64,000 nt of DNA from Verrucomicrobiota bacterium (lineage in GTDB: Bacteria > Verrucomicrobiota > Verrucomicrobiia > Palsa-1439): NCBI GenBank assembly GCA_003164675.1, contig PLTX01000095.1:1-64000 (forward strand), read 5' to 3'. The position numbers were made by a program, and so were the translations under genes. The notes beneath the pieces were generated by a model that was given only the letters and a program-made list of their open reading frames with translations, was not told the origin of the DNA and did no database searches. Shown here one piece after another: positions 38,097 to 57,737 of this stretch; within the stretch, counting starts at the first letter, position 1; the number at the start of each line of letters is the position of its first letter.

Positions 38097-38566
38097 ACGC
38101 GTTTCCCCGCTTTCTTGCCGACGGCCACAATAGCGTCAATGACCGGTTCGTAACCAGTGCAACGACATAAGTTGCCGGAGATAGCCTCTTTGACTTCGTC
38201 TTGGGAAGGGCTTGGGTTCTTGCCCAGTAGTTCGGTCGCCGAGAGCACCATGCCGGGCGCGCAGAATCCACATTGGAAGGAGTTGTGTTTGAGAAGAGAT
38301 TGTTGCACGGGCGTCAGGCCAGACTGACTCAACCCTTCGAGTGTCGTGATTTCGTGACCGTCCACCTCGACGGCCAGGATCAGGCAGGTGCGCACGGTTT
38401 TGCCATCAAGCAGCACCGTGCAGGCGCCGCAGTCGCCCCGTTCGCAACCAATCTTCGGGCTCTTTACGCCCAGCGTTTCCCGCAAGACATTGAGAAGAAT
38501 GTCGTTCGGCTCGACATCAAGGCTGCGGGTCTCGTTGTTGAGTATTACGGTGATCCGTTTTGTCAT
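38093..38566 (-). CDS. (2Fe-2S)-binding subunit of xanthine dehydrogenase family
   Basis: CERGDCGACTVLLDGK; CGFCAPGMVLSATELL; GNLCRCTGYEPVIDAI. Confidence 0.95.
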   Translation of the reverse strand: MTKRITVILNNETRSLDVEPNDILLNVLRETLGVKSPKIGCERGDCGACTVLLDGKTVRTCLILAVEVDGHEITTLEGLSQSGLTPVQQSLLKHNSFQCGFCAPGMVLSATELLGKNPSPSQDEVKEAISGNLCRCTGYEPVIDAIVAVGKKAGKRV

Positions 38567-38575
38567 GGCCGCCTC

Positions 38576-39466: not shown

Positions 39467-39476
39467 GATGACCTCC

Positions 39477-40295: not shown

Positions 40296-40305
40296 CGGCT
40301 GTCTC

Positions 40306-41718
40306 TCATTTCTTGGTTAATCTTCTGGCCAATCCCGCGAACGCTTTCTGGAACGGCTCGGCGGGCGCGCTCAACACGCCGGCGCCAATCTGGCCCACGC
40401 CCGGTTCCTTGTGGGCAACGCCGGTGTCGATGAACGGCAGGATGTTCTTCTCGACGACCTTGATCGCATCGATTCCCGTCGGCGTGCCGCGAAAGTTCAG
40501 GTAGGGAATCTGGTAGATGTTGTTCTCGCCAGCGGTGATCTCGTACATCTGTTGCGTGTAACGAATCGCATCGTCGCTACTGCCGCCAACGAACTGGACG
40601 ATGGCCGGCGCCGCCGCGATGGCGAATCCACCCAATCCATTTGTCTCCGTGATTGCGCTGTCGCCGATGTCAGGATTCGCATCGGCCCGCGTGTAACCCG
40701 GGAAGAACAAGGCGTCGGGCACATCGGCCGGACCGGTGAACCATTCATCACCAGTACCCGAGAGCTGGATGCCGAAGTCGGTGCCATTGCGGGCCATGAC
40801 GACCAGAACACTGCTGTTCCTGACGCCACGCGCCGCGTCCAGCGTGACTTTGGAGGCGGGCATGGAAAGGTTCAGGAAGAAGTGGTCGTTGTGGTTGATA
40901 AATTCCAGGACTTCAGCAGCAACGGTCGGATCATCACAGGTCGTTACAATCGCCGGCGCAATCGTCCGATAGAAAATAGAAGTGGCTGCGCGGTTGCGGT
41001 TGTGGACCTCGTCTCCCATGTGGAGCGCCTGGGCGATGATGTTCTTGAGGTCGATTTTCCCGAGTTTGGCCACAGCTTTCTTCAGGACCGGATAGAGTGT
41101 GCCTTCCATCCATCGCAGCTTCTCAATCACTGTCTCACCATACGCGCCGTAACGGAGTACCTTGCCGAGCCCCTCGTTCAACGTGCAGTATGCAAAATTG
41201 CCGTGCGCCTCGTTTTTCAGCACGAACACCGGCATCGACGGCGAGATGATTCCTGCCATCGGGCCGACGGAAGCATGTTCGTGACAGGGGGAGAAGGTGA
41301 TTGCGCCGGATGCCGCGAGCCGCTCGGCTTCCTCGAAGGTTTCAGCCTTCCGCTCATACAATAATGCACCAATCATGGCGCCACGCATTGGCCCGCACAT
41401 CCGATCCCACGTAATCGGCGGTCCCGCGTGCAGGAGCATGTCCGACTTTATCCCCGGAATGACATCGATGGCGCGCTCCAAACCGATGAGGTGTGGCATG
41501 CCGCTCAGAATGATCTTCACGACCTCGGCATTGGCCTTTTCAATCGCGGGGCGGAACATTTTCACGCGGTTCGCCAATTGGGGATCGACCTCCATCGAGG
41601 GTTTCCAGTCAACCTGCACGGAGATCGCATGGGCATCATCCAGCGCCTGTTTGAAGGCTGACAAGCCGATGTTGACGACCTTCAGGTCACTGCCGAACAG
41701 TTGATTGATCGACGTCAT
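40306..41718 (-). CDS. DUF1116 protein (AllG/YlbE-like, oxamate carbamoyltransferase component)
   Basis: About 470 aa DUF1116-type sequence immediately downstream of FdrA. Confidence 0.82.
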   Translation of the reverse strand: MTSINQLFGSDLKVVNIGLSAFKQALDDAHAISVQVDWKPSMEVDPQLANRVKMFRPAIEKANAEVVKIILSGMPHLIGLERAIDVIPGIKSDMLLHAGPPITWDRMCGPMRGAMIGALLYERKAETFEEAERLAASGAITFSPCHEHASVGPMAGIISPSMPVFVLKNEAHGNFAYCTLNEGLGKVLRYGAYGETVIEKLRWMEGTLYPVLKKAVAKLGKIDLKNIIAQALHMGDEVHNRNRAATSIFYRTIAPAIVTTCDDPTVAAEVLEFINHNDHFFLNLSMPASKVTLDAARGVRNSSVLVVMARNGTDFGIQLSGTGDEWFTGPADVPDALFFPGYTRADANPDIGDSAITETNGLGGFAIAAAPAIVQFVGGSSDDAIRYTQQMYEITAGENNIYQIPYLNFRGTPTGIDAIKVVEKNILPFIDTGVAHKEPGVGQIGAGVLSAPAEPFQKAFAGLARRLTKK

Positions 41719-43247
41719 TTCCTTCCCAAGCATTGAATGATTTGCGCCGCCAATTTGCAAGCGGCGGCGTTGGATGGCATCACAATTGCCCCGGCCCTCC
41801 GCAGGGCAGCCTCAACACGGCTCCGGTTCTGCGGATCCTGATTGGTTCCGGTGATCGAACAGATAACGGAAACTTTGCGTGATGCCTGGCGAACCACACT
41901 CGAGAGTTCGGCAGCCGGATCGGGGTGGGAGCCGTACCCGAGCACGACATCCAGTAGAATCACCGCAGTCTCCGGATCGTCCGCTTCGACGAGGATGCGG
42001 CGATTCCGTAGCGAGTAATCGATCATTGGATGCGGTCGGCCGACCGTGAATTCGTCTTCGCCAAGATCGATGACCGAGTGTTTCTGGCTGACAAGAGAAT
42101 CTCGGAGCTGCTTCGTGTTGCCCACGGGAGCGTTCGAGAACACGCCCGTCAGCAGGGATTTGAAAAGGACTTGAGCCTCGGCGCAGAACGTGCCGCCACT
42201 GAACAGTCCGCGCACATATTTCTGGTTCTTCTTCCGTTTGCCGGCTTCGCGCTTCGCGATTCGTAGGATTTCTTTATCCCGCGCAACGAGTCGGGTGGAG
42301 ACTTCATCACGCGGTTGTCCTTGTGACAGGGCAACGGCAATCAGGGCCGCTTCTTCGAGAGTGGAGGGGCAATCTTCATGTGTGGACGCACCGACAAACG
42401 AGGTTACGATGGGTTTGCGGATTGTTTTCGCCAGCTTCTCGATCCGACGCAGCACGTCTTTGTGCGGCGGTTTGGAAACGAGGAGAATGACGCGTGTCGG
42501 TTCGTGCTTTGCCAGGGCTTTCAGCCCCTCCAGAAACATGATTCCGCCGACCTCTTGTTTCACATCGCGGCCACCGGTGCCGATGGCCTGCGAGATCCCC
42601 GCGCCGGCGTTGGAGATAATGCAGCTTACTTCCTGTAACCCCGTGCCTGCGGCGGCAACGATGCCGATGTTTCCCCGATTCACGACGTTTGCGAAGGCGA
42701 GGGGAACGCCGTTAATGATGGCCGTGCCACAATCCGGTCCCATGACAAGCAGCCCGCGTTTTTGGGCAAATTTCTTCAGCGCGATTTCTTTCTCCAATGA
42801 GACGTTATCCGAGAAGAGCATGACGTGCAGACCGTTCTCGAGAGCGCGCATCGCTTCATCGCCAGCGTATCGGCCGGCAATCGAAATCAGGGCGAGATTG
42901 GCGTCAGGAATTATGTTGAGCGCACCAGCCAGGCTTGTTGGACGTGATTCGCTCCCCTTAGTGGTTGTATTGACCATCTTTTTCAGGAGCCCGTCGACAG
43001 CGGCCAGGGCAGATTGCGTTGCGGTTTCAGTCTCGCCCTTTACCGCGACCAAAAGATCGGTGTCGCTTGCATTATCAAGTCTGGCGCTCAACAGGCCACT
43101 GGAATTCAGGATCGCTTTGTTGGATTTTGTCCCCATTACCACGGCGGCGTCGATCACGCCGGGCAGGGCGGTGATCTCCTTTCCCACACGCATCAACGTG
43201 ACGGAATCGAAGTAGGCGCCTTTGCGAATCTGGCCGGCAACGATCAT
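41715..43247 (-). CDS. FdrA/AllF-like acyl-CoA synthetase-fold protein
   Basis: VMGPDCGTAIINGVPLAFANVVNRGNIGIVAAAGTGLQEVSCIISNAGAGISQAIGTGGRD. Confidence 0.9.
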   Translation of the reverse strand: MIVAGQIRKGAYFDSVTLMRVGKEITALPGVIDAAVVMGTKSNKAILNSSGLLSARLDNASDTDLLVAVKGETETATQSALAAVDGLLKKMVNTTTKGSESRPTSLAGALNIIPDANLALISIAGRYAGDEAMRALENGLHVMLFSDNVSLEKEIALKKFAQKRGLLVMGPDCGTAIINGVPLAFANVVNRGNIGIVAAAGTGLQEVSCIISNAGAGISQAIGTGGRDVKQEVGGIMFLEGLKALAKHEPTRVILLVSKPPHKDVLRRIEKLAKTIRKPIVTSFVGASTHEDCPSTLEEAALIAVALSQGQPRDEVSTRLVARDKEILRIAKREAGKRKKNQKYVRGLFSGGTFCAEAQVLFKSLLTGVFSNAPVGNTKQLRDSLVSQKHSVIDLGEDEFTVGRPHPMIDYSLRNRRILVEADDPETAVILLDVVLGYGSHPDPAAELSSVVRQASRKVSVICSITGTNQDPQNRSRVEAALRRAGAIVMPSNAAACKLAAQIIQCLGRK

Positions 43248-44083
43248 GAAACCCCCATTTCGCCGCAAACCGTGAGCAAGAATCCCGTTCCCAAATCGGC
43301 GCCGGAACTTTCGCCGATGGCCATTAGTCTCGCCGCCGACTGCCTCACCATCTCCTCGCTTTCGTGCATCAGCGCGAGAACCAGATCTTTCATGCGTCCG
43401 AAAAGCAAGCCGCGGCGGGCGAGGTCCAGAAACGAATTGGAGAATATGTTGCCGGCTTTTGCCGTTCGAAACACATCATCTGCAATCTCTTGGTAATCCT
43501 GCCCTCGTAGTTGCTGCAGAAGGTTCAAACCAATGAGCAACCCGGCGATAAAGTCGTCGCCGCTCGGAGTTAGTCCGAACCCACATCCTTTCAGGCCTCG
43601 AACGCCATTTAGCAAATTGCCATTCATGATCTGGTGGACATCGCGACGGATCTGATCCACAAAGGCCCGTTCGAACCCGGATCGGAAGTTTTGGGTTCTC
43701 TTTTCGTCGAGAAGAAAGGCGAGGCTTTTTGCGGGTGACATTGTTTTGAGTTGTTCTCCAAACACCGAGAGATTGTGCCGGAAGAGCCGACGATTGCAGG
43801 AATCGAGCGCGACAGTCGAGCGGTAAGAATGGTTGTCCGTGAACTGGAACTGGCGGTTTCCAAAGACGACCACGTGCGCCCCCACTTCCAACGGCGCCAC
43901 CCTGCCGCACGCCGGCCCGGCATCGAGGTCACAAACAACAATGTTCAGGGGGCCGGGGCCGATTTCCTCGTTGACTACGGAGATAAGGAGGTCGCCATGC
44001 CGGAAATTCACAGCTCGGTGGAACCGGGAATGGAACGGGTAGGTTCCTTTCCTCACCTGATCCCCAATACTCACCACGGTCAT
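43244..44083 (-). CDS. DUF2877 protein (AllH/YlbF-like)
   Basis: GCGFGLTPSGDDFIAGLLIGL; neighbour of FdrA/DUF1116. Confidence 0.82.
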   Translation of the reverse strand: MTVVSIGDQVRKGTYPFHSRFHRAVNFRHGDLLISVVNEEIGPGPLNIVVCDLDAGPACGRVAPLEVGAHVVVFGNRQFQFTDNHSYRSTVALDSCNRRLFRHNLSVFGEQLKTMSPAKSLAFLLDEKRTQNFRSGFERAFVDQIRRDVHQIMNGNLLNGVRGLKGCGFGLTPSGDDFIAGLLIGLNLLQQLRGQDYQEIADDVFRTAKAGNIFSNSFLDLARRGLLFGRMKDLVLALMHESEEMVRQSAARLMAIGESSGADLGTGFLLTVCGEMGVS

Positions 44084-44427
44084 GCCGGGTAAAACACCAT
44101 CCCGAAATTCTTGCTGTATTCGGCCTCGCGGACGGTCTCGACCTTCCCACGGACCGCCATCCCGATCTTCGGGCTAGGAGCTTTCAGTTGCCCCGTGATC
44201 CGCATCCCGTTTTCCAGTTCAACGATTCCAAGGGTCAGCTTGGCGACGTTGAAATCGGGGGGGAGATTGTGGACGGTTGTGAACGTCAGCAGTTTGCCAT
44301 TCTTCGGAAGAGGAACCGTGTCAAACTCGAACGGTTCCTTGTTTCCGCACTTCTTGCACACCATGCGGAACGGATAATGAAGTTGCCCGCACTTTTTGCA
44401 TTGATACGCGTAAATCTCCAGGACCAT
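44080..44427 (-). CDS. Zn-ribbon OB-fold protein (DUF35)
   Basis: YQCKKCGQLHYPFRMVCKKCGNKE rubredoxin-like knuckle, then OB fold; next to thiolase. Confidence 0.9.
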   Translation of the reverse strand: MVLEIYAYQCKKCGQLHYPFRMVCKKCGNKEPFEFDTVPLPKNGKLLTFTTVHNLPPDFNVAKLTLGIVELENGMRITGQLKAPSPKIGMAVRGKVETVREAEYSKNFGMVFYPA

Positions 44428-44429
44428 GG

Positions 44430-45605
44430 TCAGTTCTCCCTCTTAAAGACGAGGCAAACAACATTGTTGCCGAAGCCGCCGAAGTTGCAGGTGAAACCGA
44501 TCCGCGCATCCTTCACCTGTCGCTTATGGGCTTCGCCGCGAAGTTGCAGCACAATTTCGTGGGCTTGCCCGACGCCGGTCGCCCCCACAGGATGTCCTTT
44601 GGCTTTCAAACCGCCCGATGTGTTGATCGGGAGCCTCCCGCCCAGACGGGTTTCACCCCGTTCGAGCGCGAGATGTCCTTCGCCTTTCTTGAAGAAACCG
44701 ACCTCCTCGCTCTCGACAATCTCCAGAATCGTGAAGGCATCGTGAAGCTCGGCAACGTTGACGTCGGCTGGACTCACGCCGGCCATGTGGAATGCCTTGG
44801 CCGCAGCGCCCCGCACGGCCAGCAGGTCCGTCGGTTCCGCGCGTTCATGGACGCAATGGGTGTCCGTCGCCTGCCCGACGCCGGCCAGCCGGATCAAGGG
44901 TTTCTTGAGTTGCTTCGCGACTTCCGCGGATGCCAGAATCACCGCCGCGCCACCGTCGGAAACCGGACAGCAATCGAAGAATCGCAACGGTTCGGCAACA
45001 TACGGATTGTTGGTCATCGCCTCGGGGGAATCGAGGATTCCTTCGATGGTGATTTTCTCATGCAAGTGCGCGAAGAAGTTCAGCAATGCGTTGTCGTGGT
45101 TCTTCACCGCCACCATGGCCAGATGCCGCTCGGTCACGCCGTATTTCTGCATGTAGAGGCGGGTGAACATCGCAGCCAGCGACGGCAGCGTCACGCCGTA
45201 GATGTACTCGGCGAGCGGGTGCGATAGTGATGCCACGATGTCCGTCGCTTCCAGATTGTTCACCTCACGCAGGCGCTCCGCGGATGTGACCAGGACGGTG
45301 TCGTGAAGTCCGGAAGCCACAGCCATAAACCCTTGCTTGATGGCGGAAGCACCGGACGCGGGGCCGTTCTCGATGACTTCGGCGCCGGCGGGGGTCAGGC
45401 TCAGGGTGTCGACGACAGCGCTGGCCAGCCCGGTCTGGTGGTTTGCCCGGGCGCTGGCCATATTGGCCACATACACGTGATCGACCTTGGAAAGACCGGC
45501 ATCCTTCAGCGCAATCATCGCGGGATACGCGGCGATTTCACTTAACGGATACTCGAGACGAGTAAAACTCGTGATCCCGATACCGACGACATAGACCTCG
45601 CGCAT
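44430..45605 (-). CDS. Thiolase-like protein (SCP2/acetyl-CoA acetyltransferase-like) lacking canonical N-terminal nucleophile Cys
   Basis: HDAFTILEI, GGLKAKGHPVGATGVGQ thiolase motifs; ENGPASGASA at the usual CASG position. Confidence 0.85.
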   Translation of the reverse strand: MREVYVVGIGITSFTRLEYPLSEIAAYPAMIALKDAGLSKVDHVYVANMASARANHQTGLASAVVDTLSLTPAGAEVIENGPASGASAIKQGFMAVASGLHDTVLVTSAERLREVNNLEATDIVASLSHPLAEYIYGVTLPSLAAMFTRLYMQKYGVTERHLAMVAVKNHDNALLNFFAHLHEKITIEGILDSPEAMTNNPYVAEPLRFFDCCPVSDGGAAVILASAEVAKQLKKPLIRLAGVGQATDTHCVHERAEPTDLLAVRGAAAKAFHMAGVSPADVNVAELHDAFTILEIVESEEVGFFKKGEGHLALERGETRLGGRLPINTSGGLKAKGHPVGATGVGQAHEIVLQLRGEAHKRQVKDARIGFTCNFGGFGNNVVCLVFKREN

Positions 45606-45607
45606 GA

Positions 45608-46357
45608 TCAAGCCTTCCCTTCCTGTTTCCAACGCTGAGACATCAGTGCCGTGCCCGTCGAATCATAGAGCGACCGCGTAGCCGCGAGAAGATCGGCGGG
45701 CGCCTTCGGCGGATCGGTCGGCGGCAGTATGGCCGCCTGGGCTTTTTTGAGGAGTTGCTGCGGCACGGGACGGCGACCGACGACAAGCGTTTCCCGGGCG
45801 CGATTGAACAGTTCCTTTGTCAGGGCCCACGAGGGAACGCCGCCGAGTTCATGCGCGATGTGGAATCGCTTCTCCAGTTCGTACTCGATCATCCACCGCC
45901 GAAAACCAATCGGCGACTCGGCCACGATCAGGACTTCTTTTTGACCGATGATATCGATGTGGTACTCCATCTTCGTGGCGAAGGCGTGCGCTCCCACGCG
46001 CAAGCCGCGCCGAAGGGCGACGGTGTGGTACGACATGCCGACGTCCTTGCTCAGCAGGCGACCGTTCACGACCGCGACGAGCTCGCCATCGATTTGCGCC
46101 ACGAGGACGTATTCGTCCTGGACGCGATAGCGATAGTAGGCCAGAAGCTCACTGTAGAGACGCGCGGCGACAACGTCGTAATAGTCACGCTCGACGTGAA
46201 TCAGGGGTTCGACATGTTGCAGGATGTCGGGGATTTCATCCCGGGCCACCTGACGAATGACCATCTCTTCCCCGCCCGCGAGCATCATATACTTCGGTGG
46301 AAACGGCGGAACGGGATTATCGACCGGACGCAGGATCTTCTCAAGGTCAACAGCCAT
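45608..46357 (-). CDS. GNAT-like protein, function unknown (start uncertain)
   Basis: QIDGELVAVVNGRLL... GNAT-like pattern; gene overlaps/abuts thiolase. Confidence 0.5.
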   Translation of the reverse strand: MAVDLEKILRPVDNPVPPFPPKYMMLAGGEEMVIRQVARDEIPDILQHVEPLIHVERDYYDVVAARLYSELLAYYRYRVQDEYVLVAQIDGELVAVVNGRLLSKDVGMSYHTVALRRGLRVGAHAFATKMEYHIDIIGQKEVLIVAESPIGFRRWMIEYELEKRFHIAHELGGVPSWALTKELFNRARETLVVGRRPVPQQLLKKAQAAILPPTDPPKAPADLLAATRSLYDSTGTALMSQRWKQEGKA

Positions 46358-47236
46358 GACACCAAACTCTCCTCTCTCTTCGGTAAAAATTTTGTCTTCT
46401 CTGGAACAGCCAGCCGTCGAGAAGCGCTCTAGCTCGACATCTTTCGGAAACCAAGTAACCTGATATCGCATCGGTTGTGCCATTCGGTCCATCGAGAGAA
46501 TTACGAGCGACATATGTGGCTGCCACACAATTGGTTGCGTAGTTACACTGGCGTCTGTAAGAGCGGTCTTCTTGCGGGCCAGTATTGCCAGAGTGTCGCA
46601 GTCTGCCTTCGGAGGCTGACATCGTGTCAGAACTCGCAGTTGGCTGTCAGGCACCGCTGCTGGCCTCGGGTTGCCCATCCATCTCCCGAACGTCTCTGGG
46701 GGGGATGACACGGGCCGGTTACGATGAGCCAGCTAACGTCCGAACTCCCCAACCGGTAACTGTTCGTTTTCGCGGGGTGGCGTTGCCCTCGCCAACAAGA
46801 TGTGTTCGCCGACGATCCGCGCCAACCAGTGACCCGCATCCGCAACTTCGTGAGCAGTTGGCGATCGCCGAAACCGGTGTGTTCCCAGCTCACTCTGGAA
46901 ATATTCTGGACAAGGGCCCGAGATTGTGAAAAAATTCACTAAGTGGTGAAGCCGTCGCCTGTCCCGTGCGGCTGCGGTCTTGGGTCGCGAGAGGGTAAGT
47001 TGACACGTGAGGTTTAAGAGAGTTTTGGGTGCATTGCGCTGCGACTGCTCGCAACGCTCGCTGTGTCCTCCGTCTCCAGGCAATTCCTTGCCCGCCGATC
47101 CTATTTTGATGCAATTGGCAGTTCGGGCGCGAGCGAGTGACTCACGGTTTGGGTCCACCGGCTGGTCTGCGCGCGATGCCCTGGCCATTCGGCCGACCAG
47201 ACATTTCATCTCTGTTCGCAAGAAGGGAGACTTTCC

Positions 47237-47629
47237 ATGAATATCGAGGAACTCCAGAAGCTCCGGGAACGGGCGCAACGGCATCTTGCGCTGCGTGGAG
47301 GGAAGAGAAAGTACCGCGTCGTGATCAGCATGGGCACCAGCGCCATCGCTGCCGGGGCGCGCGAAGTCATGACCACAGTGCTCGACGAACTCGACAAGCG
47401 CGGCATTGAAAACGTGGAGGTCGCCGTCAACGGCGGCAGCGGACTGACCGATGCCGAGCCGGTCATCTGCGTCGAGGACAAGAGCGGCGAGAAGGTCACC
47501 TACGCCAACGTCAATCCTGCCGCCGCCCGCAAGATCGTCGCCGAACACCTGGTGGGAGGCAAAATTGTGGATGGCCTCGCGGTCGGCAAGATCAAGGAAC
47601 CACCCTTAAGCGGATCACGCGCGGGGTGA
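47237..47629 (+). CDS. HndB-like thioredoxin-fold (ferredoxin-like) subunit lacking Fe-S cysteines
   Basis: VVISMGTSAIAAGAREVMTTVLDELDKRGI..VEVAVNGGSGLTDAEPVICVE..KVTYANVNPAAARKIVAEHLVGGK resembles HndB layout. Confidence 0.7.
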   Translation: MNIEELQKLRERAQRHLALRGGKRKYRVVISMGTSAIAAGAREVMTTVLDELDKRGIENVEVAVNGGSGLTDAEPVICVEDKSGEKVTYANVNPAAARKIVAEHLVGGKIVDGLAVGKIKEPPLSGSRAG

Positions 47630-47676: not shown

Positions 47677-49704
47677 ATGACTCATAGACTGACCACTTGC
47701 ACGTTCTGCGGAGTCGGTTGCGGTCTCTATCTTGAGACATCAGGCAACCGGGTGGTGGGCGCTTATCCCAGCATGTCGCACCCCACGAACCAGGGAAGAA
47801 TATGCGCGCGCGGGTGGCATGTTCACGAGGTCGCCAGTTCGCCGGACCGTTTGAAAAGCCCGTTGCTGCGAAAGAACGGCCAGCTTGAGGAGGTCACTTG
47901 GGACGAGGCTCTCGGTTTCATTGCCACACGCATGAAGGAAATCCGCGACCGACACGGTCCTGACGCACTGGCCTTTCTCAACTCCCCACGGTGCTCGAAT
48001 GAGGAGGCGTACCTGCTACAGAAGTTGGCCCGCGCCGTCATTGGCACCAACAATGTGGATCATGGCGCCGGGGTTTACTGCAACAACTCGATCAATGTCC
48101 TCCTCAACATGATTGGCGTGGCGGCCACGACCAACTCCGTGGCGGAGTTGGCCCGGAGTGAGGTCATATTTGTGGACGGAGTGGACCTGGCCTCACAATT
48201 GCCGACCATCGGCGGGGCCGTGATCCGGGCCAAGCTCAAGGGCGCAACCATTGTGGTCATCGACGCTCGCCGTCATCGTGTCGCCGAGAGCGCCAACTTC
48301 TTCCTGCAAATCAAACCGGGTACGGAAACCCTGTTTTACGGAGCGGTGGCGAAGATCATTGTGGATCGGGGTCTGATGAATCTGCCGTTCATCAAGGCGC
48401 ACTGCCGGGGCTACGAAGCGTTTCTGGCCAGTGTTCTCGACTACGACCTGTTGGCGGCTGCGGAAGGCTGCGGAGTGTCGGCGGAACTCATTGAGTCGGT
48501 CGCCCTCGCGTACGCCCGCGCCAAGTCCGCCGCGATTCTGTACTCCACCGGTATCGAGGCGCGCGATGCCGAGACGGTGGAGGCGATCGTGGACCTGGCC
48601 CTGCTCACCGGCCAAATTGGCAAGGAAGGCGCGGGTGTCTTCGCCCTGACCGAACACAACAATCTGCAAGGTGTCTGCGACATGGGAGTGTTGCCCAACC
48701 GATTACCCGGTTACCGGCCTGTGGCGAACGCCGCGGCCCGTGCGGAGGTTGAAGCACTGTGGCACACGAAGCTGCCATCTGAAGTTGGACTGGGGGCGCG
48801 GACGCTGCTCACGGATCGCAGTCGTGCCAATGTGCGGGCCGTCTGGCTCTGCCGCTACGATCCCCTCAGCACCGCTTTCGTGGGCGACGCTGCCGATATG
48901 CTGCAGCACTGTGATCTGGTCGTGGTGCAGCATTTGTTTCTGACCGAGACGGCCCGGCAGGCTCACGTCGTGCTCCCCCTGACCGCGTTTGGCGAGGAAC
49001 TCGTTACCTTCACCAACACGGAGCGCCGGATTCAGTTGGCAAGACGCGTTATCGACCCGCTCCCCGGGACCATTCCAGCCTGGCAGCAACTCACCATGCT
49101 CGCCCGGGCTTTGGGCGCGGATTGGGACTACGACTCGCCGGCGGATGTCATGGACGAGATCGCGGCCGTGGTGCCGTTTTATAGCGGCGCTGACTACGAC
49201 AATCTTGCCCGCGGTTACGGTCGGCAGTGGCCTTGCACAAAGGATCATCCACTCGGCACACCATTTCTTTTCGCGGACGGTATTCCGCAAACCGGGTTCA
49301 AGTTCGTTCCCATTACTGTGCATCCGCAATCCGTTATCGCGCGGAAGGACTATCCGCTCACGCTGGTTTTCGGCAACTCCACGTATTACTGGAACCAGAA
49401 CGTGCTGATCCAACACAGCGAGACGCTGAAGCGCGAGTATCGCATCTTGCTGCTCGATTACCCGGAAGGTTTCGTGGAAATGAACAGTGCCGACGCCAAA
49501 CAACTGGCTGTCCGCGACGGCGAGAAAATCCGATTGCGCACGGCCAGCGGTTCGGCGGTGGTGACAGCCCGCGTCACTCCCGAAATTCGGAGTGGCGCCG
49601 TATTCGTGCCATTCTTCGTCCACCAGGTGCAGGAGCAAATCCGCGGCCCCATGGACAACGGCGTCCAGTTGGTGCCGGTTCGGGTGGAAAAGGAGGCCGC
49701 TTGA
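47677..49704 (+). CDS. Formate-dehydrogenase-alpha-like molybdopterin oxidoreductase (non-canonical active site)
   Basis: CTFCGVGCGLYLE..GRICARGWHVHE [4Fe-4S]; NSPRCSNEEAYLLQKLARAVIGTNNVDHGAGVYCNN; NNLQGVCDMGVLPNRLPGY. Confidence 0.88.
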   Translation: MTHRLTTCTFCGVGCGLYLETSGNRVVGAYPSMSHPTNQGRICARGWHVHEVASSPDRLKSPLLRKNGQLEEVTWDEALGFIATRMKEIRDRHGPDALAFLNSPRCSNEEAYLLQKLARAVIGTNNVDHGAGVYCNNSINVLLNMIGVAATTNSVAELARSEVIFVDGVDLASQLPTIGGAVIRAKLKGATIVVIDARRHRVAESANFFLQIKPGTETLFYGAVAKIIVDRGLMNLPFIKAHCRGYEAFLASVLDYDLLAAAEGCGVSAELIESVALAYARAKSAAILYSTGIEARDAETVEAIVDLALLTGQIGKEGAGVFALTEHNNLQGVCDMGVLPNRLPGYRPVANAAARAEVEALWHTKLPSEVGLGARTLLTDRSRANVRAVWLCRYDPLSTAFVGDAADMLQHCDLVVVQHLFLTETARQAHVVLPLTAFGEELVTFTNTERRIQLARRVIDPLPGTIPAWQQLTMLARALGADWDYDSPADVMDEIAAVVPFYSGADYDNLARGYGRQWPCTKDHPLGTPFLFADGIPQTGFKFVPITVHPQSVIARKDYPLTLVFGNSTYYWNQNVLIQHSETLKREYRILLLDYPEGFVEMNSADAKQLAVRDGEKIRLRTASGSAVVTARVTPEIRSGAVFVPFFVHQVQEQIRGPMDNGVQLVPVRVEKEAA

Positions 49705-50789
49705 AAGCCCGCATCCTGAATCGCGCGGATGTACTCAAGATTGTGGACCAATTGCGCCAGCAGGACTACGAGGTTATTGCCCCGTTCCACGGCTGGGGAC
49801 GCGACACCTTCTTCGACACGGTAACGGATGAGAATCGTGAGCGCATTGAATTGCATCTGCCCAATCCCTACTATCCGCCAAAGCGTTTTGTCCTCCCGCA
49901 CATCGAGCGCCTGTTGAAGGTGCGGCGCGCCAACGGCGGCATCCAGATTGAGCCGACGTACGAAGAGCCCAAACGTGCCATCTTCGGGATACGCTCGTGC
50001 GATCTTGCCGGGATCTATCATCTCGATCGCTTCTACCTGGGCCGTGATTTCCGCGACATCTATTACGAGAAGCGCCGACGAAACCTGTTTCTGGTGAACC
50101 TCGTTTGCACCGACCCGGACCGCGACATCAGTGACGAGTGCTTCTGCGTGTGCGCCGATACCGGGCCGGCCGCGCGCGATCACTTCGATCTACAACTCAT
50201 GGATCTGGGCAATGAATTCATGGCGGTGGCCGGCACGCCCGCTGGCGAGGCGCTGTTCGCGAGTCCGATTTTCCGGAAAGGCGGGGTGGAACACATCCAA
50301 AAGCGCCATACGATCCTGACCGAGGTGCGCAAGCGGTTCAAAACCACCACCAGTTGGTTTGCGACAACCATTCGCTGCGTTTCCCAGGGCAGCGTCTCGG
50401 AAAGGACCTGGGAAGAGATCGGCAATCGTTGCCTCGAATGTGGTGGTTGCACCTATGTCTGTCCGGCCTGCACCTGTTTCACCGTCAGCGATCGCCCGGT
50501 GGCGGCAAACGAAATGGAGCGCGTCCGGATCTGGGATTCCTGCGCCCTCAGCGGCTTTACACGGATGGCGGGTGGTTTCAATCCGCGTCGCACTGTGCAC
50601 GACCGGCGCAACCGCCGTTTTTTCCGCAAGCTGGCGCACTATTTCATCCAACGTGAACTCTCCATGGCATGCGTCGGCTGTGGCCGCTGTGCTGACGTCT
50701 GTCATGGTGACATCGGAATGCCAAGCGTGGTCGAGATGATCCGCCGCGCCTCAACAGAGGTTGACAAGCATGAACGCGTCGGCTACTGA
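49701..50789 (+). CDS. Sulfhydrogenase-beta/AsrA-like 4Fe-4S dicluster protein (HydB-like); TTG start
   Basis: AIFGIRSCDLAGI; CLECGGCTYVCPACTCF; CVGCGRCADVCHGDIGM; aggagg just before TTG at 49701. Confidence 0.82.
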   Translation: MKARILNRADVLKIVDQLRQQDYEVIAPFHGWGRDTFFDTVTDENRERIELHLPNPYYPPKRFVLPHIERLLKVRRANGGIQIEPTYEEPKRAIFGIRSCDLAGIYHLDRFYLGRDFRDIYYEKRRRNLFLVNLVCTDPDRDISDECFCVCADTGPAARDHFDLQLMDLGNEFMAVAGTPAGEALFASPIFRKGGVEHIQKRHTILTEVRKRFKTTTSWFATTIRCVSQGSVSERTWEEIGNRCLECGGCTYVCPACTCFTVSDRPVAANEMERVRIWDSCALSGFTRMAGGFNPRRTVHDRRNRRFFRKLAHYFIQRELSMACVGCGRCADVCHGDIGMPSVVEMIRRASTEVDKHERVGY

Positions 50790-51618
50790 GAACATTTATT
50801 TGCCAAAGACCGCGGTGCTCGATCGGATCGTGACCGAGATTCCCGACGTGAAGACATTCTATTGGCGCTTTGACGATGCGGCGGAACAGCAGGCGTTCAA
50901 ACGGTTTCGTCCCGGCCAATTTGCGCAGGTATCGCTGTTTGGCGTTGGAGAATTTCCCGCGTCACTGCCGCCCAGCCCGACCGAGAAAGAGACCTTTTTC
51001 ACGATTCGTCAGGTTGGGAGTTGCACGGCCGCGCTTCACCAGCTCAAGGCCGGAGACAGATTTGCCGTGCGCGGACCGTACGGCAACGGTTTTCCCATGG
51101 AAGAATATTACGGGAAGAACCTTGTGTTCGTCGCGGGCGGCATCGGGCTGATTCCATTGCGCTCTTGCATTGTGGATGCGCTCGAGCACCGCGACAAGTA
51201 CCAGCGCATCCAGATTTTCCATGGCGCGAAGACACCCGGGGAATTGATGTACGTCTCCAAACTTCACGAATGGGAGCTGACGCCCGGGGTCGAGTGCCAT
51301 CTTACGGTAGACCGTGCCGCCGCCGGTTGGAGCGGCAACGTTGGCGTTGTCGGGAGCCTGTTTGCGAAGCCTGGCGTGCACGTGCCGGTGGAGAACACCA
51401 TTGCCTTCGTCTGCGGTCCTCCGATCATGTTCCGCTTTGTTATCAAGGACCTGCTCGCGATGGGATTCCAGCCACGGCAGATCGTTTCGACGCTGGAGCG
51501 CTACATGAAATGCGGCGTCGGGAAATGCGGCCACTGTTGTATCGGCGTGGCCTATGTCTGCGTGGATGGTCCCGTGTTTACTTACGAACAAATTGCGAAC
51601 CTCGGGGAGGACATCTGA
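50770..51618 (+). CDS. FAD/NAD(P)- and 2Fe-2S-binding sulfhydrogenase-gamma/AsrB-like subunit (HydG-like)
   Basis: RGPYGNGFPMEEYYGKNLVFVAGGIGLIPLRS; CGPPIMFRFV; MKCGVGKCGHCCIG. Confidence 0.88.
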   Translation: MNASATENIYLPKTAVLDRIVTEIPDVKTFYWRFDDAAEQQAFKRFRPGQFAQVSLFGVGEFPASLPPSPTEKETFFTIRQVGSCTAALHQLKAGDRFAVRGPYGNGFPMEEYYGKNLVFVAGGIGLIPLRSCIVDALEHRDKYQRIQIFHGAKTPGELMYVSKLHEWELTPGVECHLTVDRAAAGWSGNVGVVGSLFAKPGVHVPVENTIAFVCGPPIMFRFVIKDLLAMGFQPRQIVSTLERYMKCGVGKCGHCCIGVAYVCVDGPVFTYEQIANLGEDI

Positions 51619-52124
51619 TGCCGAACCTCCGGGAACAACTTCGATGCTGTCTCGAAGGACGTGTCTGTTTGATGGGCATTGGGAATGTGGATTATGGAGA
51701 CGATGGCTTCGGCGTGCGCCTGGCCGAGAAACTCATCGAGGCGGGAACGCCGGATGTGGTTGTCGGCGGGACTTCACCCGATCGCTGCCTGGGCCGTGTC
51801 GTGGAAGAAGGATTCAATCACCTTGTTTTTTTGGATGCGGTTGAGTGTGGCGGCACGCCGGGTTCGGTCGTCCTGTTGAACACCGAAGAAATCGTCGCGA
51901 GATTTCCACAAGTCTCCACACACAACATCTCGCTGGGTCTGCTGGCAAAATGGGTGGAAGCGAATGGGAATACGCGCGTGTGGTTGTTGGGTGTCCAACC
52001 AGAATCATTGAAGCGGGCAGGGTCGCTTACAACGAGGGTGCAGACCACGCTCGACGCTCTCGGTGAATTGCTGTGCAGCCTGGAGACCGCGGCAACGCAT
52101 TGCGCCGCAGAAACGGAATCATGA
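51618..52124 (+). CDS. Hydrogenase maturation protease (HycI/HyaD-like)
   Basis: MGIGNVDYGDDGFGVRLAEKL; LVFLDAVECGGTPGSV; STHNISLGLL. Confidence 0.88.
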   Translation: MPNLREQLRCCLEGRVCLMGIGNVDYGDDGFGVRLAEKLIEAGTPDVVVGGTSPDRCLGRVVEEGFNHLVFLDAVECGGTPGSVVLLNTEEIVARFPQVSTHNISLGLLAKWVEANGNTRVWLLGVQPESLKRAGSLTTRVQTTLDALGELLCSLETAATHCAAETES

Positions 52125-54049
52125 TCACGCCCGAACAAGCGGTACTGGCTGCGATTCTCATCTGCCTCGGTGGGGCAGTACTGGTGCTTCCCCTCTCGCG
52201 CAACAAGAACAGCGCCGGTTGGTTTGCCTTTTTCGTTACCGTGGCTTCCGCCATCCTCATTCTCCTTGCCGTCGGTGAGGTTCTGACGAGCGGGCCATCG
52301 CCGCATGCCGCTACGTTTTGGGCGATGCCGGAAATCGGCTTCGCGTTATGCATTCATGTGGATGGCCTGACATCGATGTTCCTGTTGCTGGCAGCGGTTA
52401 TTGCGGTTCCGACTTCGTTCTACTCCATCGTCTACATGCGACACTATCCGGACTACGGCGTGGCACGATACTATCCCCATTTCCTGGCGTTCCTCGCCGC
52501 GATGTACGGTTTGTTGAGCACCACGGACATGATGTGGTTCTTCTTCATTTTCTGGCAAATGATGACCCTGCCGGGCTATGCGCTCATCCGTTTTGAGAAC
52601 CGGAAACCGGAGAACATCCGGGCGGCGAATAAGTTTCTTATTATGATGCAAATCGCCTGCGCGGCCACCATGATCGGAGCGGAGTTGCTCGCCGTCACGG
52701 GGGCGGCTGCGCGCGGCGGCGCGAGCCTGAAGTACGACTTCGATACCGTCAGCGGGAACCTGCCGTTGCTGTTGGCCACCAGGCCGGGAACCACGGCGCT
52801 GGCGTTTGCCTTGTTCCTCGTGGGGTTCGGCATAAAGATGGGCATGTGGCCATTCGGCCAGTTCTGGCTGCCCGACGCGCATCCGGCCGCACCGTCGCCG
52901 GTAAGCGCGATGTTATCCGGCGTGATGATCAAGACCGGGGTCTACGGTCTGATGCGTTATTTCCTCTGGCTGGTTCCGGTGGAAGCGCAATCCGATTATC
53001 CGATGGCACGGTGGGGCTTGATTGTCGCGGTGCTCGGGACGGTCACGCTGTTCACCGGCACGATGCAGGCGCTCAAACAGGAACAGACCAAGCGCCTGCT
53101 TGCGTTCCACAGCATCGGGCAAATTGGATACATCCTGCTGGGAACGGGTGCGTGCATGGTCTTGTTGTCCTCGACCCGTCCGGATGCCGCGGCATTGGCC
53201 ACGATTGCTTTCTTCGGCGCGCTCTTTCACGTTCTCAATCACGGTTTGTTCAAAGGACTGTTGTTCTTGAATGCCGGATCGCTGCTCCATGCCACGGGCA
53301 CGCAAGACCTGAACAAAATGGGCGGGCTGATGAAGTTCATGCCGCTGACCGCGATCACGGCACTGATCGCCTCGTTCTCGATTTCCGGTGTGCCATTATT
53401 CAACGGCTATGTCAGCAAGTGGAGCATTTGCGTGGCGGCACTTTTGGGGAGCGGGTCGGCCCGGTACCTGGCTGTATGCGCCGTCATCGCCATCCTGACC
53501 AGCGCGCTTACACTGGCCTCGTTTATCAAGTTTTTCGGCACAAGCTTCCTCTCGCGCACGAGCGCCCTCGTGACCGAACGGGCGGCCCGGAACGGACGGC
53601 TTGAGGTCGGCTGGATCATGCAGATCCCGCAGGTGTTCCTGGCGTCGCTGTGTGTGTTATTGGGACTGGTGCCGGCGATTGCGTTCCGCCTGATGCAACA
53701 CGCATTGGACGCCAGCCGACAAGGCTTTGGCGCCGCGCTTTCCAAGAGCGCTCCGATGGTGAGCGGGCCTCTGACCGGTCTGGAGGGATTTGATGCTGCG
53801 GCGCGGTTTGCGCCACTTGCGCTTGCGGCCTTGTTGGGGCTGCTGTTCCTTGTCGCCTACGGCATTTCTCGAATCGGTGGCGCCCCGCGCCGCGCCGCCG
53901 TTCCGTGGCTCTGTGGTTACGTGCCCGAGCAGGATTGTCACCGCTACGTCGCCCACAATTTCTACGGCGAAATCAAACGCTACTTCCGGTGGTTGGGAGG
54001 AATGCCGCACCCGCAGCCGGGCAAACAGAAGGTGTTGAAGGGAAACTGA
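52121..54049 (+). CDS. Proton-conducting antiporter-like subunit (NuoL/HyfB-like)
   Basis: Polytopic; GIKMGMWPFGQFWLPDAHPAAPSPVSAMLSGVMIKTGVYGLMR; LLAFHSIGQIGYILLG; HVLNHGLFKGLLFLNAGSL. Confidence 0.93.
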   Translation: MITPEQAVLAAILICLGGAVLVLPLSRNKNSAGWFAFFVTVASAILILLAVGEVLTSGPSPHAATFWAMPEIGFALCIHVDGLTSMFLLLAAVIAVPTSFYSIVYMRHYPDYGVARYYPHFLAFLAAMYGLLSTTDMMWFFFIFWQMMTLPGYALIRFENRKPENIRAANKFLIMMQIACAATMIGAELLAVTGAAARGGASLKYDFDTVSGNLPLLLATRPGTTALAFALFLVGFGIKMGMWPFGQFWLPDAHPAAPSPVSAMLSGVMIKTGVYGLMRYFLWLVPVEAQSDYPMARWGLIVAVLGTVTLFTGTMQALKQEQTKRLLAFHSIGQIGYILLGTGACMVLLSSTRPDAAALATIAFFGALFHVLNHGLFKGLLFLNAGSLLHATGTQDLNKMGGLMKFMPLTAITALIASFSISGVPLFNGYVSKWSICVAALLGSGSARYLAVCAVIAILTSALTLASFIKFFGTSFLSRTSALVTERAARNGRLEVGWIMQIPQVFLASLCVLLGLVPAIAFRLMQHALDASRQGFGAALSKSAPMVSGPLTGLEGFDAAARFAPLALAALLGLLFLVAYGISRIGGAPRRAAVPWLCGYVPEQDCHRYVAHNFYGEIKRYFRWLGGMPHPQPGKQKVLKGN

Positions 54050-54050
54050 C

Positions 54051-55733
54051 ATGGTCGCCCGCGACAGGCTCGAACAATTGAGAGGGAAGTTTGGATCCGC
54101 CATCCAGCGCGTGGATTTGCCGGGCGACAGCCGATTGTTTGTATTCGTCGAGCCGTCGGTGGTGAAAAACATCTGCCAGTATATTTTCCGCGATCTCGAC
54201 GCCCGCTACGTGATCAGCATTGGCATCGACGACCGTCCGTTTTCCGGCAATTTCATGGTGGCGCACAATTTCGCATTCGACGAGGACCACCTGTTGTGCA
54301 GCGTGCTCACCTATCTGCCTTCGAACAATCCGAAGATTGACAGCATCTCGGATGTGGTGCCAGCCGCAAACTGGGCGGAACGTGAGATGCGGGATTTGGT
54401 CGGGATCGAACCGGTGGGACACCGCTACCTGAAGCGACTTGTACTGCCCGATGGCTGGCCGGAGGGCGAGCATCCGCTCCGCAAGGATTTCTCCTGGGAT
54501 CACGTTCCCAAGGAATTCAATGACGAACGGGAATTCACATTTGACGAACCGCCGGAAGGCTGCACGGTTGTCCCGTTTGGCCCGTTCCATCCGACGCTGG
54601 ATGAGCCAGCGCATTTTCGCCTGTATGTCGAGGGCGAGATGGTGCGCGGGTGCGAGTACCGCGGGTTCATGGCGCATCGCGGGATTGAGAAGATGGCCGA
54701 GTCCGTGCTTGGCTACAACGACATTCCGATGTTGGCGGAGCGGATCTGCGGCATTTGCGGGTGCGTGCACAGCGTGGCGTACGTGCAAGCCGTTGAGTCC
54801 GCGGTCGCTCTCAAGCCTCCGCCACGTGCCGAATACATCCGCACCATCATGTTGGAGATCGAGCGTTTGCACAGCCATCTGCTGTGGGTCGGGTTGGCCT
54901 GTCACATTGTCGGTTTCGACACGTTGTTCATGCAAAGTTTCCGGATTCGCGAGCCCATCATGTGGATCGCCGAGAAGATCAGCGGCAACCGCAAGACGTA
55001 TGCGCTGTGCGTTATCGGCGGTGTGCGTTGGGACATTACGCCCGTGTTGAAGAGCGAACTGCGCCAGGTGCTCGACAAACTCGAGGCCGAGTGGCGCGAG
55101 GTCGTGGCCGCTGTCAGCAAGGACAAGAACATCCAGAAGCGAACGGTTGGCGTGGGCCTGACCAACAGGGATCTCGTGAAGAACGCAGGGCTCGTCGGTC
55201 CTGTGGCGCGGGCGGCGGGAGTGGACATCGACTGTCGCCGTGATCACCCGTATGCGGCGTATGATCGTGTGGAGTTTGACGTGATTACCGCTGGCGGCGG
55301 CGATGTCTGGTCGCGGTTGCTGGTGCGGATGTCGGAGGTGTTCGAATCGATCCGCATCATCCGCCAGTGCCTGGAGAGAATGGACGACGGGCCGCTGCAG
55401 TCGCCGGTTGATGGCGAACTCCCCGTCGGACGAATGGGGTTGTCATCGGTGGAAGCGCCGCGCGGCGAGAGTCATCACTTCGTCATCACCGGTGAGAACA
55501 ACCGTCCACGCCGATGGCGAGTTCGGGCGCCCACTTATCAAAATCTGCAGGCGGTGCCAATGATGATCAAAGACCAGCAGATCGCCGACATGACCATTTC
55601 GCTGGGCAGTATCGACCCCTGTTTCTCGTGCACGGACCGGTTGGAGACAATCGACCTGCGTTCTGGCGCAACTCGAGTCTGGTCGCAACGAGAGTTGTTG
55701 GAGCTGGCACGGGCGAAGGAGGTAAGGCGATGA
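54051..55733 (+). CDS. [NiFe]-hydrogenase group 4-like large subunit fused to NuoC-like domain (HycE/HyfG-like)
   Basis: L1 ERICGICGCVHS and L2 DPCFSCTDR CxxC motifs intact; N-term NuoC-like region. Confidence 0.95.
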   Translation: MVARDRLEQLRGKFGSAIQRVDLPGDSRLFVFVEPSVVKNICQYIFRDLDARYVISIGIDDRPFSGNFMVAHNFAFDEDHLLCSVLTYLPSNNPKIDSISDVVPAANWAEREMRDLVGIEPVGHRYLKRLVLPDGWPEGEHPLRKDFSWDHVPKEFNDEREFTFDEPPEGCTVVPFGPFHPTLDEPAHFRLYVEGEMVRGCEYRGFMAHRGIEKMAESVLGYNDIPMLAERICGICGCVHSVAYVQAVESAVALKPPPRAEYIRTIMLEIERLHSHLLWVGLACHIVGFDTLFMQSFRIREPIMWIAEKISGNRKTYALCVIGGVRWDITPVLKSELRQVLDKLEAEWREVVAAVSKDKNIQKRTVGVGLTNRDLVKNAGLVGPVARAAGVDIDCRRDHPYAAYDRVEFDVITAGGGDVWSRLLVRMSEVFESIRIIRQCLERMDDGPLQSPVDGELPVGRMGLSSVEAPRGESHHFVITGENNRPRRWRVRAPTYQNLQAVPMMIKDQQIADMTISLGSIDPCFSCTDRLETIDLRSGATRVWSQRELLELARAKEVRR

Positions 55734-56656
55734 GCCACGGGGTGATTTCCGCGCTTCTGGGTGGAGTGCTCAACGTGGGCCTCGTCCTATTGCTGGCTCC
55801 GCTCTGCCAGGGGGTGCTGCGCAAGGTCACGGCGCGTGTCCAGTCGCGGCAGGGCCCGCCGATTTGGCAGCCGTACTTTGACCTGCTGAAGCTACTGGGC
55901 AAAGAAGACATCGAATCCGGGGAATCGCCGGGGATGCAGCGGTTCGCCGCCTGTCTCTCGCTGGCTACTGTGTTGAGCATACCGTGCCTCGTGCCGATGG
56001 GGTTCGCGGCGCCGATGAACGACGTTGCGGACGTGTACCTGCTCATTTATCTGCTGGCGCTGTGCGGCGTGTGCACGTTGCTCGCGGGTTTGGCGGCGGG
56101 ATCCACCTATTCGCTCGTGGGCATCAGCCGCGAAATGATGAGCATCATCGTGTTGGAGCCGTTGTTTGCCATCGCTCTCCTGGTGGGCGCGCTCCACACA
56201 CGGTCATTCCGTTTGGACACGGTATTGAACGGCTCGGTTTACGCGACCGATGGCTTCCCGTGGTCGGGACTCATCATGCTGGGCGTGATCCTGCTGTCAT
56301 TCCAAGCGTTCGTGCAGCGCGTTCCGTTCGACATTTCCGAAGCGGAAACGGAACTCATGGAAGGCCCTCTCATGGAATACTCGGGCCCCAAGCTCGCGCT
56401 GTTGAAGTATGCGCAGATGGCAAAACTTGTCATCTACAGTGCGCTGTTCGTTGGGCTGTTTGTGCCGTGGGGTTCGGGGGAACCGTTCCCGTGGAACTGT
56501 TTGGTGTTTGCGATGAAGGTATTCGCCCTGGTGCTGCTGGTGACGCTGGTCGCGGCAACGCACGCGCGCTACCGAATTGATCAGGCCATCCGCTATTTCG
56601 CGTTCCTGCTGTCGATCGCGTTCGTGGCGCTGGTCCTGGCGAGCTATGGCCATTGA
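55730..56656 (+). CDS. NuoH/HyfC-like membrane subunit
   Basis: ARVQSRQGPPIWQPYFDLLKLLGKEDI; RVPFDISEAETELMEGPLMEYSGPKLALLKYAQ. Confidence 0.93.
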   Translation: MSHGVISALLGGVLNVGLVLLLAPLCQGVLRKVTARVQSRQGPPIWQPYFDLLKLLGKEDIESGESPGMQRFAACLSLATVLSIPCLVPMGFAAPMNDVADVYLLIYLLALCGVCTLLAGLAAGSTYSLVGISREMMSIIVLEPLFAIALLVGALHTRSFRLDTVLNGSVYATDGFPWSGLIMLGVILLSFQAFVQRVPFDISEAETELMEGPLMEYSGPKLALLKYAQMAKLVIYSALFVGLFVPWGSGEPFPWNCLVFAMKVFALVLLVTLVAATHARYRIDQAIRYFAFLLSIAFVALVLASYGH

Positions 56657-56669
56657 CTGAGGTGAACAA

Positions 56670-57194
56670 ATGTCGGTCTCGAGCAAACTGAAAGAAACGC
56701 TGGTCTGCCTCAAGGCGGGACGCGTCACGCTCCCGTATCCTGCGCAGGCCCGGCCGGTACCCGAGAAGTTCCGCGGTCGGCCCATCTTCGACGTAACAAA
56801 GTGCACCGGTTGCGCGGGGTGTGCGAATAATTGTCCGGCCCGCGAAATCCTCGTGTTCGATATCTGCCAGGAGATCCGGGTTCTGGAATACTCGGGCCTC
56901 CGCTGCACGTATTGCGGACGATGCGCCGATCTCTGCCCCGAGAAGGCCATCACCCTGAGTCATGATTTCGAGACCGGCACGGACAGCATCCACGACAACC
57001 AGCAGCGATTGGAGATCTTCATGAGCACCTGCCAGCGATGCGGTCGCTGCTTCGAAGAACCGTCAGCGTTGGAAGAGTTGAAAATGAAGGGCTACCGCCT
57101 GGACGATTTGGCGAACGACCGGTGGGTTTTCCGTTCGCGGTCCTATTTGGAAGGCGAGCCGGCAGTCGAGGACATCCCGATCGAAATGGATTGA
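56670..57194 (+). CDS. 4Fe-4S ferredoxin-type subunit (NuoI/HyfH-like)
   Basis: CTGCAGCANNCPA; CTYCGRCADLCPEKAI. Confidence 0.92.
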   Translation: MSVSSKLKETLVCLKAGRVTLPYPAQARPVPEKFRGRPIFDVTKCTGCAGCANNCPAREILVFDICQEIRVLEYSGLRCTYCGRCADLCPEKAITLSHDFETGTDSIHDNQQRLEIFMSTCQRCGRCFEEPSALEELKMKGYRLDDLANDRWVFRSRSYLEGEPAVEDIPIEMD

Positions 57195-57200
57195 GCTGCC

Positions 57201-57737
57201 ATGTTGAAGAACCTTTGCCAGAAAATGTTTGGCCGATCGTTGTGGGTGTATCATGCCAACAGCGGCGGCTGCAACGGATGCGACATCGAAGTGCTCAATG
57301 TCCTCACGCCCTACTACGACGTGGAGCGGTTCGGCATCAAACTGGTTGGCTCGCCGCGTCACGCGGACGTGATGCTCTGCCAGGGCCCCGCGATGCATTC
57401 CACGGCCCGAGCGCTCAAGCGCGCCTACGATGCGATGCCCGCGCCCAAGCTCGTCTTCGCCATCGGCTCGTGCGCCTGCGGGGGTGGCATTTGGTTCGAC
57501 AGTTATCCCGTCCTCGGACCGGTGGAGAGAGTCGTGCCCGTGAACTACTACATCCCGGGTTGTCCGCCCCGACCGGAGGCGATCATTTACGGCGTCGCGG
57601 TCGCTGTCGGGCTCGTGGACAAAAAGACCGCGCCCATTCAGCTCAAGCAGCTGGTGCTTCCGATTCCTCGTTACCATCCGAACGAGCTTTGTGGATCGGG
57701 CGAAATGGTGGTTTATGAGAGAGCCGAGAAGGTGTGA
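57201..57737 (+). CDS. [NiFe]-hydrogenase small subunit (NuoB/HyfI-like)
   Basis: NSGGCNGCDIEVLNVLTPYYDVERFGI; GSCACGGGIW; YIPGCPPRPEAI. Confidence 0.95.
   Translation: MLKNLCQKMFGRSLWVYHANSGGCNGCDIEVLNVLTPYYDVERFGIKLVGSPRHADVMLCQGPAMHSTARALKRAYDAMPAPKLVFAIGSCACGGGIWFDSYPVLGPVERVVPVNYYIPGCPPRPEAIIYGVAVAVGLVDKKTAPIQLKQLVLPIPRYHPNELCGSGEMVVYERAEKV

Follow-up and report, generated by a model that had tools for sequence, protein, structure and literature searches.

The formate dehydrogenase (FDH)-like protein FdhL, encoded in a 64,000-nucleotide stretch of Verrucomicrobiota DNA (the window), is probably a cofactor-free, NuoG-like scaffold or relay subunit that does not oxidise formate and that belongs to an NAD(P)H-linked membrane hydrogenase complex. 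The active site has been lost, yet the gene opens the same operon in dozens of bacteria of several phyla, which argues that the protein is probably a scaffold or an electron-relay part. A first-pass annotation had read the gene as an FDH-like subunit with an altered active site, and had called for an AlphaFold model, a survey of homologues and a phylogeny against FDHs and NuoG.

The FdhL fold and its former active site

The open reading frame lies exactly where the first-pass annotation had placed it, and presents the following features.

47677..49704, plus strand: FdhL, FDH-like subunit of 675 amino acids, with the [4Fe-4S] motif present and the catalytic triad and bis-MGD contacts gone (Pfam, NCBIfam, alignments, AlphaFold2, Foldseek)
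47698..47721, plus strand: [4Fe-4S] ligands C8, C11 and C15, by alignment; the fourth ligand, C43, is at 47803-47805
48058..48081, plus strand: DHGAGVYC, once the Sec/Cys-His ligand loop; single occurrence in the window
48649..48663, plus strand: TEHNN (T325-N329), once the Arg333 loop, by alignment

FdhL matches Pfam families PF04879, PF00384 and PF01568, the Fe4S4, molybdopterin and dinucleotide-binding domains of FDH. Its score on the NCBIfam FDH alpha model (TIGR01591) is 571.2 bits, under the cut-off of 666.25, and that on the NuoG model (TIGR01973) is 130 bits, under the cut-off of 470. The N-terminus is the MopB Fe4S4 motif, and the N-terminal [2Fe-2S] domain of NuoG is absent. The closest solved structures are HDCR FdhF and F420-linked FDHs, with FdhH lower in the list. 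The AlphaFold2 model from a 61-sequence alignment (pLDDT 90.6, pTM 0.92), used in place of a discarded model from 12 close sequences (pLDDT 49), is a complete FDH fold that matches E. coli FdhH (PDB code 1aa6) with a Foldseek TM of 0.89. The fold is thus whole, as had been claimed from the sequence.

Profile and pairwise alignments place Tyr134 of FdhL at Sec140 of E. coli FdhF, Cys135 at His141 and Thr325 at Arg333. As the alignments to FdhF-type enzymes run without a gap through the motif (DHGAGVYC is found once in the window, with a chance expectation of 0.00), this assignment, already made in the first pass, stands. So does the preserved 4Fe-4S motif: C8, C11, C15 and C43 are all present. 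A further change in the catalytic site, beyond those listed in the first pass, replaces Lys44 by Arg45 and is seen in 47/47 homologues.

In the 47 aligned homologues the ligand position is occupied by Tyr (43), His (2) or Phe (2), and Cys/Sec occurs in 0/47. The next residue is Cys in 25, Ser in 11, Arg in 6 and Gly in 2, the remainder being Thr, Val or Ala; since Cys135 varies in this manner, it is unlikely to serve as a functional substitute ligand. The Arg333-equivalent position holds Thr, Ala, Ser, Met or Cys. The cluster cysteines are retained in 47, 47, 47 and 46 of the 47 proteins, the sole exception being a Verrucomicrobiia MAG (L062) in which the fourth is Ser (GRLSVRG). Judged from these alignments, loss of the triad is a family trait and not a local accident. 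Altered active sites were also noted in FDH-like proteins of two Chloroflexi MAGs, with Asp at the Cys/Sec position (L107) and Val at the Arg333 position (L089). In a Nitrospirae MAG (L103), an FDH-like gene adjoining hydrogenase genes encodes Gly at the Cys/Sec position and Ala at that of Arg333; it falls outside the operon clade, and its active-site change is possibly a separate loss.

The bis-MGD pocket and cofactor supply

Arsenite oxidase holds Mo without a protein ligand (PMC10100899), so loss of the Cys alone proves nothing. The bis-MGD contact positions are those of the UniProt/HAMAP NapA record; E. coli NapA carries the expected letters at these positions, and the corresponding columns are better conserved in canonical FDHs (0.70 vs 0.58, P 0.0006). 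Seven diagnostic contacts (FdhF numbering: N176, M297, Q301, D429, D478, R581 and H585) give a score of 7/7 in FdhF, NapA and FdnG and of 6-7/7 in canonical FDHs. The score is 1 in E. coli NuoG, 0/7 in FdhL of the window and 0-1 in the window clade and its sister clade; N176, Q301, D429, D478, R581 and H585 are replaced in the window clade. A low score is by itself no proof of cofactor absence, as distant MGD enzymes that do function score low too (DmsA 2/7, NarG 4/7). The MGD columns conserved in canonical enzymes are preferentially altered in the clade, where 9/22 are kept compared with 114/156 elsewhere (Fisher P 0.005). Within the clade, the former MGD columns are conserved above average (0.84 vs 0.74, P 0.002), a sign that the pocket is under constraint and might have something bound in it. 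The vacated pocket appears to have been rebuilt, not left drifting, and contains the near-invariant new polar residues D170, H419, E441 and N137. On this residue pattern, FdhL has very probably lost its molybdenum (bis-MGD) cofactor.

The genes for cofactor supply were searched in the carrier genomes. In E. coli, active FDH depends critically on the FDH sulfurtransferase FdhD; the review reporting this also notes exceptions (PMC10609526). FdhD is absent from 19/20 carrier genomes tested (the window genome, G000, and 18/19 others) and from 11/11 sister-operon genomes; it was found in 8/8 genomes selected for their canonical FDHs. The incompleteness of MAGs (G000 is 90% complete) limits any single absence, and the overall pattern is stronger than one genome. 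MobA is mixed among carriers. It is clear in some, such as G028 (MobB-MobA), G044, G437 and G438; matches to the MobA search in G013, G021 and G034 resemble IspD by inspection, and in the window genome no clear MobA was found, as the only MobA-like match of note scores as MocA (168 vs 55 bits). Since MobA is present in several carriers, no general argument is built on its absence. The remaining MopB proteins found in the window genome resemble NuoG.

Three proteins from related operons, TL213, TL218 and TL220 (loci L213, L218 and L220 of genomes G1150, G1182 and G1081), carry Tyr in place of the Cys/Sec and Asp in place of the His, and keep 7/7 MGD contacts and Arg333. FdhD is absent from all three genomes, and a clear MobA was likewise not found there. 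These copies lend weight to a different reading, in which a Mo/W pterin remains bound to FdhL, possibly through the Tyr or without any ligand from the protein, and a substrate other than formate is oxidised or reduced there to feed the hydrogenase. The conserved pocket of the window clade with its four new residues and the MobA of some carriers point the same way. This reading has to accommodate the replacement of six contacts in the window clade, the exchange of the ligand-site Tyr for Phe in two members and for His in two, and a window genome with neither a clear MobA nor FdhD; we consider it rather unlikely, and prefer an FdhL devoid of the cofactor.

The operon and its lineage

FdhL is the first gene of a conserved nine-gene operon that joins a sulfhydrogenase-type NAD(P)H module to a group 4 membrane [NiFe]-hydrogenase. 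The eight genes that follow it are:

49701..50789, plus strand: AsrA/ShyB/SHI-beta-like subunit with two [4Fe-4S]; best solved relative P. furiosus sulfhydrogenase 1 beta (9nez_B, E 5e-34)
50761..51618, plus strand: AsrB/ShyC/SHI-gamma-like subunit with FAD, NAD(P) and [2Fe-2S]; best solved relative sulfhydrogenase 1 gamma (9nez_C, E 1e-55)
51618..52124, plus strand: HycI-like [NiFe]-hydrogenase maturation protease (Pfam/NCBIfam profiles)
52121..54049, plus strand: HyfB/HycC-like antiporter-type membrane subunit (Pfam/NCBIfam profiles)
54051..55733, plus strand: HycE-like group 4 [NiFe] large subunit, with RICGICGCVH and DPCFSCTDR intact (motifs; best solved relative E. coli HycE, 7z0s_E)
55730..56656, plus strand: HycD/NuoH-like membrane subunit (Pfam/NCBIfam profiles)
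56670..57194, plus strand: HycF/NuoI-like subunit with 2x[4Fe-4S] (profiles, motifs)
57201..57737, plus strand: HycG/NuoB-like small subunit with the proximal [4Fe-4S] (profiles, motifs)

A HycB homologue was not seen among the operon genes. The claim that the gene sits in an intact operon extends to nine genes, with the cofactor motifs of the redox partners intact. In the operons of the clade, the two [NiFe] Cys motifs of HycE (L1 and L2) are present in 40/40 and 39/40, the [4Fe-4S] motif of AsrA in 40/43 and the [2Fe-2S] motif of AsrB in 40/41; among the redox subunits, active-site loss is confined to the FDH-like one.

Relatives of FdhL at about 56-80% identity occur across MAGs titled Verrucomicrobia, Acidobacteria/Terriglobia, Methylomirabilota, Omnitrophota, Phycisphaeraceae, Lentisphaerae, Chthonomonadales and Anaeromyxobacter, these names being MAG titles, which can be wrong. 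The order FdhL, AsrA-, AsrB-, HycI-, HyfB-, HycE-, HycD-, HycF- and HycG-like is generally common to MAGs titled as several phyla, with exceptions, where the contig reaches far enough for the order to be judged. A HyfB match is absent at two loci (L065 and L066). In Anaeromyxobacter sp. RBG_16_69_14 (L079), an FdhL fragment (residues 1-282) is followed directly by HycF and HycG, with the middle of the operon missing, and a close HycE was not found in that genome. This fragment, together with the related locus L084, which is broken in the translation used, might suggest that FdhL is decaying as a pseudogene or is an artefact of assembly. Intact frames of ~640-690 aa at 57-80% identity in independent MAGs, invariant residues and a fixed gene order contradict a sequence error or pseudogene, and make this explanation exceedingly improbable.

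Samples of two other phyla, searched with HycE, revealed further operons, with HycE at ~50% identity. Wherever the FDH-like gene of these distant operons is readable it adjoins AsrA/AsrB, and in none is the ligand site occupied by Cys/Sec; the residues there include Gly, Asp, Gln, His and Tyr. In a tree of 64 proteins, 42/42 operon-linked copies form one clade (support 100/98), which leaves out the canonical FDHs sampled. In a second tree, which includes three NuoG-type proteins, 19/19 operon-linked copies again group together (100/99), with NuoG outside. The operon-linked copies share one origin. A clade joining NuoG and the MGD-poor copies, and with it a shared descent of FdhL with NuoG, is rejected (p-AU 0.0098). 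The trees contain long branches, and the basal place of TL213, TL218 and TL220 has moderate support (87/78).

The operon lineage may, tentatively, be read as a record of how an FDH turned, step by step and independently of complex I, into a part resembling NuoG. The Cys/Sec would have been replaced first, with the bis-MGD contacts kept (as in TL213, TL218 and TL220); the cofactor contacts would have been lost next, and the pocket rebuilt under constraint. In the boldest form of this proposal, the Tyr would be the ligand of a Mo/W still present in the basal copies, or some different ligand would occupy the rebuilt pocket of the window clade.

The known formate hydrogenlyases pair a group 4 hydrogenase with an FDH. 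On that precedent, and with FdhF-type FDHs as its nearest families and structures, FdhL might be a formate dehydrogenase still, other residues performing the catalysis in a variant of formate hydrogenlyase. We judge this very unlikely, given the sub-threshold score on TIGR01591 (571 vs 666 bits), the combined absence of triad, MGD contacts and FdhD, and a lineage in which Cys/Sec at the ligand site is nowhere seen. The first-pass verdict that the protein is not a formate dehydrogenase is supported by the loss of triad and MGD contacts and by the near absence of FdhD from the carriers.

Proposed role and relation to known systems

The first pass had left two options, a different substrate or a structural or electron-relay role of the NuoG type. 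The evidence favours the second, as the MGD contacts are lost with the triad, FdhD is nearly absent, several carriers are without a clear MobA and the other redox subunits are intact; the likeness to NuoG is one of analogy, not of descent. FDH-derived FdhL would neither oxidise formate nor carry Mo/W bis-MGD, and would most likely bridge or support the AsrA/AsrB and hydrogenase parts of a physical complex. This predicted complex would exchange electrons between NAD(P)H and H+/H2 via the sulfhydrogenase-type module, the use of NAD(P)H being inferred from the homology of AsrA/AsrB. Electrons would pass from NAD(P)H to FAD and [2Fe-2S] (AsrB), to [4Fe-4S] (AsrA), possibly to the [4Fe-4S] of FdhL, and on to HycF, HycG and the [NiFe] site (HycE). 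The redox reaction would be coupled to ion movement through HyfB/HycD: ions would be pumped when NAD(P)+ oxidises H2, and would have to flow in for NAD(P)H to drive H2 release.

The conserved cluster of FdhL suggests a relay, but it could also be a dead end or a docking site for ferredoxin. Ferredoxin is a frequent partner of group 4 hydrogenases, the operon shows no HycB homologue and the FdhL cluster is retained though the Mo site is gone, all of which would suit a cluster that is a ferredoxin docking and entry site in place of an AsrA-HycF relay. The NAD(P)H module accompanies FdhL wherever the contig reaches, so that we hold such a site to be improbable and retain the scaffold or relay role.

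FdhL can be compared with several known systems. The FdhF-type cytoplasmic FDHs (FdhH, HDCR FdhF; TIGR01591) share its four-domain fold, the [4Fe-4S] and ~30-36% full-length identity, but FdhL is without the active-site Cys/Sec, His and Arg, has 0-1 of the 7 MGD contacts, and FdhD is missing from nearly all carriers. E. coli formate hydrogenlyase (Hyc/Hyf with FdhF) has homologues of its HycE, HycD, HycF, HycG and HyfB/HycC in the FdhL operon, which differs in a predicted-inactive FDH subunit, in the added AsrA/AsrB, in a HycB not seen and in having fdhL inside the operon. The beta and gamma subunits of sulfhydrogenase I (group 3b, P. furiosus) match the AsrA/AsrB homologues, but the module is joined here to a membrane group 4 hydrogenase and not to the soluble group 3b alpha/delta. 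As in complex I, an FDH-related protein accompanies NuoB/D/H/I-type subunits and an NADH module, in a complex that is predicted here; NuoG/Nqo3 differs in its separate clade and in its N-terminal [2Fe-2S]/[4Fe-4S] domain, absent from FdhL, and the NADH module is NuoEF in complex I and sulfhydrogenase-type here.

QrcB is a MopB protein without the Mo/W cofactor. ActB, FhcB and the FDH-related NuoG/Nqo3 are MopB lineages that likewise lack Mo/W-bisPGD, and a substantial fraction of "cytoplasmic FDH" matches is without the Cys and groups with Nqo3 (Wells et al. 2023, PMC10100899). ActB, QrcB and FhcB belong to different complexes and branches, and FdhL would be a further cofactor loss. The kind of operon has been seen already: Matheus Carnevali et al. 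(2019) described in Saganbacteria RX5A an "enigmatic" group 4 hydrogenase operon of like composition with an unclassifiable molybdopterin oxidoreductase (PMC6349859), matched here by its description. Those parts of that paper that treat the operon leave its electron donor and role open and do not mention that an active site or a cofactor was lost. In a search of the openly accessible literature, we did not find the active-site and cofactor loss of FdhL, its extent or the FDH-to-scaffold series. What is new is therefore the explanation (active-site and cofactor loss, scaffold or relay), not the operon type, and it offers for the operon called "enigmatic" a concrete hypothesis, that of a membrane-bound NAD(P)H:H+ oxidoreductase.

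How complex I acquired NuoG, an FDH fold without molybdenum, has long been asked, and comparisons are few. The FdhL operon family seems to provide a second such case, of independent origin, one in which a gutted FDH was joined to an NAD(P)H module and a group 4 hydrogenase; some of its copies look like intermediates. The family also calls for caution in MAG annotation, where such genes can be misread as formate dehydrogenase or, through AsrA/AsrB, as dissimilatory sulfite reductase. A survey of Armatimonadota inferred sulfite reduction from Asr genes (PMC10290634); some of these may belong to an FdhL-type hydrogenase.

Just upstream of FdhL (47237-47629, plus strand) lies a gene for a 130-aa relative of thioredoxin-like [2Fe-2S] ferredoxins in which the expected cluster Cys are missing (GTSAIAAGA, NGGSGLTDAEP). 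It was dropped as a candidate tenth subunit, as it is not beside FdhL in other genomes. A divergent cluster further upstream (35667-46711, minus strand) had no linked homologues in the flanks of the clade, save weak hydroxylase matches at two loci, and no functional link to the FdhL operon is therefore claimed. This cluster encodes a three-subunit molybdenum hydroxylase of the CO-dehydrogenase/xanthine-dehydrogenase type, a cyclase, an oxamate carbamoyltransferase (AllG/FdrA/AllH), a ChsH2-like OB-fold protein and a thiolase; the oxamate carbamoyltransferase alongside the thiolase/OB-fold pair is an unusual pairing.
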